From NCBI GenBank assembly GCA_003577145.1, contig QEUP01000010.1, positions 62,001 to 126,000 on the forward strand: DNA of 64,000 bases. Reading direction: 5' to 3'. Each line of letters begins with the position of its first letter. The first letter of the stretch is position 1. Source of the stretch: Acidobacteriota bacterium. GTDB lineage: Bacteria; Actinomycetota; Acidimicrobiia; Acidimicrobiales; Microtrichaceae. The notes under the pieces were generated by a model, which searched no databases, was not told the DNA's origin, and saw nothing but the letters and a program-made list of their open reading frames with translations. The position numbers and the translations under genes were made by a program. Below are positions 17,674 through 20,058 of the stretch, one piece after another.

Positions 17674-18714
17674 TCAGCGCAGGACCATTCGCCCCCTGCC
17701 ACCTCCCGTGACACGGCCTATCGCGGCGGCAGTATGGCCGCTGCGGCGGAGATCGGCGAGCACCCGGTCGACCCGCTCGGCGGTGACACCGAAGAGCAGG
17801 CCTCCCGAGGTCTGCGCATCGGCCAGCAACGTCACCGTCGTGGCATCCGTCTCACCGGGAACGAGGGCACCCTCGACATCTCGCAGGTTCCTTCGCGTGC
17901 CGGCCGGGACGCAGCCGGCCTCGGCAAGCTCCCTGACACCACCCAGCACCGGGACATCCGCCACGTGGATCTCGACGTCGGCGCGCGACTCGTCCGCCAT
18001 CCTGCGGAGATGACCCAGGAGGCCGAATCCGGTGACATCGGTGGCGCCGGTTGCACCCGCCGCCGAGGCCGTTTCCGCGGCGGCGGCGTTGCTGCGGGTC
18101 ATGACCGCGATCGCCGCGTCGCTCACTGCGGAGCGAGCAAGGCCCTGCTTGATCGCCGTGGTCGCGATACCCACGCCGAGAGGCTTGGAGAGCACCAGTA
18201 CATCACCGTCTCTCAGCCCGGCGTTGGTGAGCATCCGCCGGGGATCCACCTCGCCCACGACCGCCAGCCCGTACTTGGGTTCCGGATCGTCGATCGTGTG
18301 CCCACCGGCGATGACGAAACCGCAATCCCCGCCCACATCAGAGCCGCCGGCGAGCACGTCGGAGAGCAACTCGGTGGGCAACTCCTCGACGTTCCAGCCC
18401 ACGAGGTTCAGCGCCAGCAGAGGACGCCCGCCCATGGCATACACATCGGATACCGCGTTGGTGGCTGCTATGCGTCCCCAGGTGCGCGCGTCATCGACCA
18501 CCGGCGTGATGATGTCGGCGGTCACGACGATCGCCCGGTCATCGGCCAGACGCCACACCGCGGCGTCGTCGCCGGTGACGGGACCGACCAGGAGGTCAGG
18601 ATGGGAAGGGGGTGACAGTCGGCGCAGGACCTGCGCCAGCTCGCCGGCAGCGAGTTTGCACGCTCAACCGGCGCCGTGGCTGTACTCCGTGAGTCTGCGG
18701 CTTGCCTCTTCCAC
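17674..18714 (-). CDS. selD: Selenide, water dikinase (SelD) with in-frame UGA = selenocysteine 17
   Basis: SelD makes selenophosphate from selenide and ATP for selenocysteine or selenouridine synthesis. From GTG 18558 downward the frame encodes a SelD that lacks its catalytic N-terminus. In the same frame, upstream across one TGA (18666-18664), the translation is VEEASRRLTEYSHGAG-(TGA)-ACKLAAGEL. This matches the SelD active site SHGAGCGCK, so the UGA sits exactly where other SelDs have Cys or Sec, followed by Cys19 and Lys20. With GTG 18714 (AGGGGGTGAGG ribosome site) the UGA is codon 17 and the protein has 346 residues, the usual family length. GDDAAVW and the glycine-rich GGSDVGGDCGFVIAGGHT are conserved. 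A SECIS-like hairpin follows the UGA. The gene starts 42 bp after the acetyl-CoA hydrolase gene and is probably co-transcribed with it. selA, selB and tRNA-Sec must lie outside the window. Confidence 0.93.
18621..18637 (-). promoter_or_regulatory. Bacterial SECIS-like hairpin in selD mRNA
   Basis: On the minus strand, 27-43 nt after the UGA, GGCGC and GCGCC form a perfect 5-bp stem enclosing AGGUCCU. The E. coli fdhF SECIS presents AGGUCU on a similar GC stem, and the guanines and U in that loop are contacted by SelB. The distance from the UGA falls within the range commonly used for bacterial SECIS models. A second small stem, CUCGC/GCGAG, lies between the UGA and this hairpin. Confidence 0.7.
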
Positions 18715-18756
18715 TACCTCACCCCCTCTCGTTCGAATCGAGGTCCGATCGGACCG

Positions 18757-20058
18757 CTACCAGATCGAGTTGGCGGCCGCGTCCATCAGGTCGTCACGGA
18801 AATCAGGATGGGAGATGGCCGCCAGCGCGAAGGCTCTCTCGCGGACCGTCCTGCCCTGCAGCTCGGCCGCCCCGAACTCCGTTATCACCACATCCATCTG
18901 GTGCCGGGGGGTGGTGACGATGGCACCGGCGTCGAGCCGTGCCACGATGCGCGAGCGCCGCTCGCCGGCGATGGTCGCGGTGGCCGGCAGACAGATCAGT
19001 GCGCGATCGCTCAGCTCGATTCCCGGGCCGGCGAGGAAGTCCTCGTGGCCGCCTATCCCGCTGTACTGGCGACCATCGATCGTGTCGGCGATGAGCTGCC
19101 CGTTCAGGTCTATGCTCAACGCCCCGTTGATGGTGACGATCCTGCGGTTCTGGGCGATGACCGAAGGTGAGTTGACCTGCTCGACCGGTAGGAACCGAAC
19201 CTCACCGTTCCCGTCGAGCCAGTCGTAGAGCTGCCTGGTGCCGGCCGCGAAGGTGCTCACCGAATAGCCGTCGTGGATGCCTTTGTTGTTGGTGACCTTG
19301 CCGGCCTGGTGGAGATGCATGAGCCCGGTCGTGAACATCTCGGAGTGGATCCCGTAGTCGCCACCCGGGCCGTCGGACAAGAGCTTGGCCACCGTGCTCG
19401 GGACAGCTCCGATACCGGTCTGCAGCGTGCAGCCGTCCTGGATGAACCGCGCCACGCTTTGGGCGATGGCCCGGTCGGCGTCGCTCGGCTCCGGGTCCTC
19501 CAGGACGAACGGCTCCCGTCCGCTCTCCGTCACGACATCGACCTCGTCGATGTGGAGGCCGTGACGATGTTCGGGGGGAATCCCTAGCGTCCGTGGATAG
19601 TTGGCATTGATCTCGACGATCATCAGCCGACCGGGATCAGCGCAGGCCCGCTTGAACTCGTCGACGGTGGCACCGGCATGCAGGGACAGGCTCATGTAGC
19701 CCTGGTCGTCGGGAGGCGTCACGACGGTGGCCATGACCCTGGGGCTGAGGGCCTCCAGCAGGGGCTTGAAACGCCGGAAGTCGGCGGGGACGAACTCGAT
19801 GAACGCGCCCGAGTCCCGCAGGAACCGCTCAGCCGGCCCGAAGAACCCGCTCACGTACCTGACGCCGGGCCTGGTGAACAACTCGTAGAGGTCGACCAGC
19901 AGCCCGCCGAACACCTCGAGCTCCTCCCAGTCGTCGCGCGCGCCGAGCGCGTGCAGCAGGTCACCCGGGAGCGCAGGGCCGAGGCCCAAGCCGAGCGTGT
20001 CGCGGGGCTTGAGCAGGTCCACGACCTCCTCGACGGGGGTGATCTTGGCGGTCGCCAT
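18757..20058 (-). CDS. Acetyl-CoA hydrolase/4-hydroxybutyrate CoA-transferase family protein
   Basis: A 433-residue family I-type CoA-transferase that moves CoA between acetyl-CoA and a short carboxylate or hydrolyses the thioester. LQTGIGAVPSTVAKLL and GIHSEMFTTGLMHL are family segments, the latter Glu being the probable covalent carrier. IGGHEDFLAGPGIELSDRALICLPATA is the C-terminal CoA-binding region. ATG 20058 is preceded by GGAGATTCGATGG. It is likely the first gene of a two-gene unit with selD. No metabolic link to selenium is evident. Confidence 0.88.
   Translation of the reverse strand: MATAKITPVEEVVDLLKPRDTLGLGLGPALPGDLLHALGARDDWEELEVFGGLLVDLYELFTRPGVRYVSGFFGPAERFLRDSGAFIEFVPADFRRFKPLLEALSPRVMATVVTPPDDQGYMSLSLHAGATVDEFKRACADPGRLMIVEINANYPRTLGIPPEHRHGLHIDEVDVVTESGREPFVLEDPEPSDADRAIAQSVARFIQDGCTLQTGIGAVPSTVAKLLSDGPGGDYGIHSEMFTTGLMHLHQAGKVTNNKGIHDGYSVSTFAAGTRQLYDWLDGNGEVRFLPVEQVNSPSVIAQNRRIVTINGALSIDLNGQLIADTIDGRQYSGIGGHEDFLAGPGIELSDRALICLPATATIAGERRSRIVARLDAGAIVTTPRHQMDVVITEFGAAELQGRTVRERAFALAAISHPDFRDDLMDAAANSIW

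Follow-up and report, generated by a model that had tools for sequence, protein, structure and literature searches.

A TGA-containing selD gene in an acidimicrobial genome almost certainly encodes a selenocysteine-containing selenophosphate synthetase

Introduction

Bacteria insert selenocysteine (Sec) at UGA codons with the aid of SelB, which binds a hairpin in the mRNA (the SECIS element) and delivers Sec-tRNA-Sec to the UGA. In E. coli, the apical loop of the fdhF SECIS contains a G. Selenophosphate synthetase (SelD) can itself be a selenoprotein, and Haemophilus influenzae and Aquifex are examples of bacteria with a Sec-containing SelD.

Such enzymes have been widely documented. Among bacterial selenoproteins, SelD ranks second in breadth of distribution, having been found in 383 organisms (PMC5029168), and the bacterial SECIS (bSECIS) elements of Sec-SelD genes have already been described (PMC4561486). 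According to a published bSECIS model, the loop is 3–9 nt long with a G in loop positions 1–2, the stem is 4–16 bp, the distance from the UGA is 16–37 nt and the folding energy is at most –7.5 kcal/mol (PMC13188914). As for the Actinobacteria, a Sec-SelD was listed for Symbiobacterium, which was then placed in that group, and SelD was named among the families lost around Rubrobacter (PMC1794560). Our literature search for Acidimicrobi* with selenoprotein, judged by titles and abstracts, found no relevant report.

Here, we analyzed a selD gene in a window (the whole stretch of DNA under study) of 64,000 nucleotides from a 4.05-Mb draft genome that is 96.6% complete, and compared it with SelD genes of related and distant bacteria. 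The features of the locus are listed in Table 1.

Table 1. Positions of the features of the selD locus in the window
Feature	Coordinates	Strand	Description	Evidence
selD (selenide,water dikinase / selenophosphate synthetase)	17674..18714	–	346 residues, predicted Sec at 17	TIGR00476, E. coli SelD 3u0o
In-frame TGA, predicted Sec17, at the site of the E. coli SelD catalytic Cys	18664..18666	–	codon 17	homologue alignment
Bacterial SECIS hairpin	18620..18638	–	8 bp, loop GUC 18630–18628	bSECIS model, covariation
Ribosome-binding-site-like AGGGGGTGAGG	18717..18727	–	upstream of GTG 18714	read directly from sequence

Reading frame and active site of selD

The minus-strand frame from GTG 18714 to the stop TGA at 17674 comprises 346 codons, and its single interruption is the TGA at 18666–18664. 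Between the previous in-frame stop and this TGA, GTG 18714 is the sole ATG, GTG or TTG, and the TGA is thus codon 17, exactly where the original prediction had placed it. Mechanical calling of open reading frames yields a gene from GTG 18558 to 17674 with 294 residues; residues 1–52 are lost and, as had been foreseen, the active site with them, so that automatic annotation truncates selD and misannotation is easy. The read-through product has a computed mass of 35.5 kDa, near the anticipated value of about 36 kDa. The GC content of third codon positions is coding-like on either side of the TGA, including the stretch from the TGA to GTG 18558. A gene that by its look is acetyl-CoA hydrolase/transferase-like (18757–20058, minus strand) lies upstream with its end 42 bases from selD, and the two may be cotranscribed.

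When compared with the TIGR00476 model, for which membership needs a score above the curated cut-off of 125 bits over the whole model, the read-through protein scored 369.1 bits over model positions 1–309 of 311. Its alignment with E. coli SelD (3u0o) covers almost the full length (residues 3 to 343, E = 6e-77). In this alignment, the E. coli motif HGAGCGCK lies along HGAG-U-ACK (U = TGA) within the context LTEYSHGAG-U-ACK, and Cys17 falls on the TGA, in agreement with the prediction that the UGA occupies the Cys/Sec site of the SelD motif. The N-terminal loop has both the predicted Sec17 and Lys20. Across 13 aligned SelDs of the order, Lys20 is invariant, residues 18–52 are conserved at the protein level and the other invariant residues are retained.

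The SECIS hairpin

The core hairpin GGCGC-AGGTCCT-GCGCC lies at 18637–18621, 27–43 nt past the TGA, which is the position and the loop (AGGUCCU) originally proposed. Folding lengthens it to the 8-bp structure UGGCGCAG-GUC-CUGCGCCG at 18638–18620 (–12.2 kcal/mol), with a UGA-to-loop distance of 33 nt, and this hairpin satisfies every limit of the published bSECIS model (PMC13188914). Among synonymous recodings of selD, 3% carried a compliant hairpin that was equally good and 20% passed the bSECIS energy limit; the hairpin of this single sequence is therefore weak evidence taken alone, modestly better than chance. The proposed SECIS-like nature of the hairpin held up against the model and in the covariation analysis described below, whereas the likeness of its loop to the fdhF loop AGGUCU is not informative by itself and was given little weight.

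We then considered the hairpin across SelD genes. The bSECIS model was passed by 47 of 57 Sec-SelDs, compared with 4 of 46 Cys-SelDs, the sequences being related and the trials not independent. Within 29 Sec-SelDs, 93% of the cells were paired and 21 cells were double-changed; these sequences had been chosen for a hairpin at this place, which inflates the paired percentage and leaves the double changes unaffected. None of 500 shuffles reached the observed paired percentage, double-change count or covariation score, and pairing fell to 28–49% when the partner was slid by 1–3 columns. In the equivalent columns of 15 Cys-SelDs, 52% of the cells were paired and there was no covariation excess. Conservation and covariation of the hairpin are thus far beyond chance. 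The pairing is visible at the codon level, where the third base of the Ala27 codon tracks residue 31: GCG occurs with Arg CGC or CGT (31), GCC with Gly GGC (5) and GCT with Ser AGT or AGC (3). A covariance model made without the window sequence gave the selD hairpin 34.1 bits and the next place in the window 15.5 bits. When the genome was searched with the SECIS model, SelD scored 35 bits and the next place 20 bits, and no other credible element emerged.

The distance of the hairpin from the UGA in Sec-SelDs (loci L050–L129, first 60 nt after codon 17) is either about 33 nt or 16–20 nt. The distal site is used in Actinomycetota, Gemmatimonadota, Verrucomicrobiota and others, including the gene in the window, and the proximal site in Thermodesulfobacteriota, Bacillota and some Chloroflexota. 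According to the hairpins that can be formed, 32 Sec-SelDs have the distal site only, 7 the proximal site only, 9 both (a class defined with a lax limit of –5 kcal/mol) and 7 neither; on the tree described below, three changes between the exclusive states suffice. It is conceivable, though on balance doubtful, that the SECIS occupies two alternative sites of selD across phyla and moved between them through dual-hairpin intermediates, and that at the distal site RNA pairing, not protein function, fixes residue 31 as Arg, Gly or Ser to match Ala27 GCG, GCC or GCT. The two-site pattern remains a lead, because the gene in the window enters the class with both sites solely through a weak 6-bp proximal alternative.

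TGA and Cys codons among SelD genes

At least 50 other non-redundant SelD genes carry TGA at the identical codon, and the remaining ones carry Cys. The TGA-containing genes come from Actinomycetota, Gemmatimonadota, Chloroflexota, Verrucomicrobiota, Thermodesulfobacteriota and other phyla, and within the order, nine further genomes share the TGA at codon 17. The alignment with Cys and Sec homologues thus gave the result originally expected, with the TGA at the catalytic Cys and shared by relatives. Of 103 SelD sites in a wider set, 57 were TGA (including the gene in the window and one duplicate record, L024 = L057) and 46 were Cys. We also constructed a quick maximum-likelihood tree of 101 SelD proteins with the Sec column masked. 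The SelD of the window was placed in a group of 26 rows, nearly all actinobacterial, with 23 Sec and 3 Cys (SH-aLRT 95), its order-level kin include Acidimicrobiales MAGs, and nine Sec/Cys changes suffice for the whole tree.

Separately, in one Cys-SelD of Gemmatimonadota (L075, codon TGC), the 5΄ half of a SECIS-like element is still present (GAGCTGGCGCAGGTGCT), but the 3΄ half after it is disrupted. Judging from the sequence, this looks like a change from Sec to Cys with a relic of the SECIS.

Selenocysteine machinery and other selenoproteins

The full selenocysteine system that the original prediction implied is encoded in the genome. There is one tRNA-Sec gene with anticodon TCA (contig C26, 57168–57259; 63 bits; ARAGORN SeC); RF01852 also matches ordinary tRNAs (13 matches), and only the 63-bit TCA gene was counted. 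On the same contig, selA (393 bits) adjoins selB (250 bits) at 80741–83.6 kb, both above the cut-off. SelD is single-copy, the next matches to the SelD model reaching at most 69 bits. The selD contig differs from that of selA, selB and tRNA-Sec, and there is no operon link; accordingly, Rfam and ARAGORN found nothing within the window, where the hairpin has no Rfam family.

Over 61 genomes of the family and order, SelD and SelA were both present in 20, both absent in 37 and discordant in 4 (Fisher test, P = 6e-12), and the corresponding numbers for SelD and tRNA-Sec were 22, 37 and 2 (P = 2e-14). Each of the 10 genomes that have a TGA-SelD also has tRNA-Sec, and 9 of them have SelA above the cut-off; the tenth, an 88% complete draft, has a SelA fragment only. 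Two genomes of the same family (L028, G001:C12:193959–196677; L019, G015:C17:247055–249553) contain a compact tRNA-Sec–selD–selA cluster with a Cys-SelD. Since the Sec-SelD described here lies apart from selA–selB and tRNA-Sec, whereas these relatives cluster a Cys-SelD, the comparison suggests that the Sec system was transferred or replaced within the family.

For other selenoproteins, about 2.4 Mb of the genome (59%) was read for TGA-containing genes. Candidates were taken from a codon-usage score, which recovers SelD, whereas GC by codon position had failed to do so. Nearly all of the other candidates from this score look like the ends or starts of neighbouring genes, and the part read held one further convincing selenoprotein gene, which encodes a DUF3179 protein (L203:12079–13323, plus strand; TGA 12604 = C27:232604–232606; PF11376, 181 bits, E = 4e-53). 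Its context is GEPYLVTY-U-VVCSS, with UxxC replacing CxxC, and a bSECIS-compliant hairpin (–12.6 kcal/mol) lies 22 nt downstream of the TGA. DUF3179 proteins with Sec in a UxxC/T motif are a listed selenoprotein family (PMC9312934). The family search over the whole genome found one TGA in this DUF3179 gene, and one in a DUF3179 gene of a relative (G058). The DUF3179 gene led us to reject the view that the genome encodes no selenoprotein besides SelD.

Selenouridine as the purpose of SelD was also rejected, as YbbB (ybbB/mnmH, TIGR03167) had no match at E 0.001 in the 96.6% complete genome. A TGA-containing FdhA was not found in the genome, and an FdhA-like protein on contig C23 has Cys (RVCHAPST). 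Sec-decoding bacteria without Sec-FdhA all have Sec-SelD (PMC1794560), a rule that this genome obeys as far as it was read. Seven relatives whose genomes contain selA and tRNA-Sec have an FdhA with one in-frame TGA (loci L157–L161 and L165, plus genome G048).

Discussion

Our results leave very little doubt that selD encodes a Sec-containing selenophosphate synthetase in which UGA17 is decoded as Sec by means of SelB and Sec-tRNA at a SECIS within the gene. Translation would begin at GTG 18714 and the ribosome would meet the UGA at codon 17, where SelB with Sec-tRNA-Sec, bound to the mRNA hairpin 33 nt downstream, would insert Sec in place of termination. The full 35.5-kDa SelD would carry Sec17 in a mobile N-terminal loop and, with Lys20, make selenophosphate from selenide and ATP. 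Selenophosphate would serve as the selenium donor for SelA in converting Ser-tRNA-Sec to Sec-tRNA-Sec, and the DUF3179 protein would be a further user of Sec. Because SelD is single and itself needs Sec, it would help to make itself, and the Sec cycle would depend on its own product. The same self-dependence is tolerated by other bacteria whose sole SelD contains Sec.

The TGA could instead be a sequencing error or a nonsense mutation, the true codon being TGT or TGC or the gene being a pseudogene. A single-base change would indeed yield Cys, as found in some relatives (for example L018), but at least 50 SelD genes from independent sequencing carry the same TGA, nothing else breaks the frame of 346 codons, the invariant residues are retained, and a covarying hairpin accompanies a complete Sec machinery in the genome; we consider such an error extremely improbable. 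Termination at the TGA is hardly more credible. The shorter protein from GTG 18558, which would be a SelD-like ATPase lacking the catalytic residue, is what a mechanical call produces, but if it were the functional product, one would not expect residues 18–52 to be conserved as protein with Lys20 invariant, nor third positions to be coding-like from the TGA to GTG 18558, and the genome has no other SelD to serve SelA.

A further view grants that UGA17 is read through but holds that no Sec is inserted, a near-cognate tRNA or a reassigned UGA supplying Cys or another residue, which would preserve the frame equally well. Against this, the genome has tRNA-Sec, SelA and SelB, which co-occur with TGA-SelD, the TGA is found at the Sec/Cys site only, and the hairpin covaries in the TGA genes only. 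We therefore regard read-through of this kind as scarcely plausible, and decoding of UGA17 as Sec as the reading to be preferred.

This Sec-SelD is near certain but ordinary, since the gene belongs to a well-known type that ranks second among bacterial selenoproteins in how widely it occurs. For selenium biology, the gene confirms rather than changes existing knowledge, and it indicates that a Sec system with a Sec-containing SelD exists in an acidimicrobial lineage. The TGA-containing genes, in which alone the hairpin covaries, and their Cys relatives offer a clean comparative case of RNA structure constraining the choice of codons and residues.

Compared with described systems, E. coli SelD (3u0o) belongs to the same family over its full length and shares the HGAG(C/U)xCK loop; however, it has Cys17 and Gly18, contains no Sec and needs no SECIS, whereas the selD product described here would have Sec17 and Ala18. 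The E. coli fdhF SECIS is also a coding-region hairpin after the UGA with a G in its apical loop, but the gene, stem and spacing differ. The closest counterparts are the Sec-containing SelDs of other bacteria, which have Sec at the catalytic site of the N-terminal loop and a coding-region SECIS just downstream, and which are likewise the one SelD encoded alongside selA, selB and tRNA-Sec in their genomes. From these known Sec-SelDs, the gene described here, in which the UGA-to-loop spacing (31–33 nt) falls in the upper part of the accepted 16–37 nt, differs in organism and sequence detail only.
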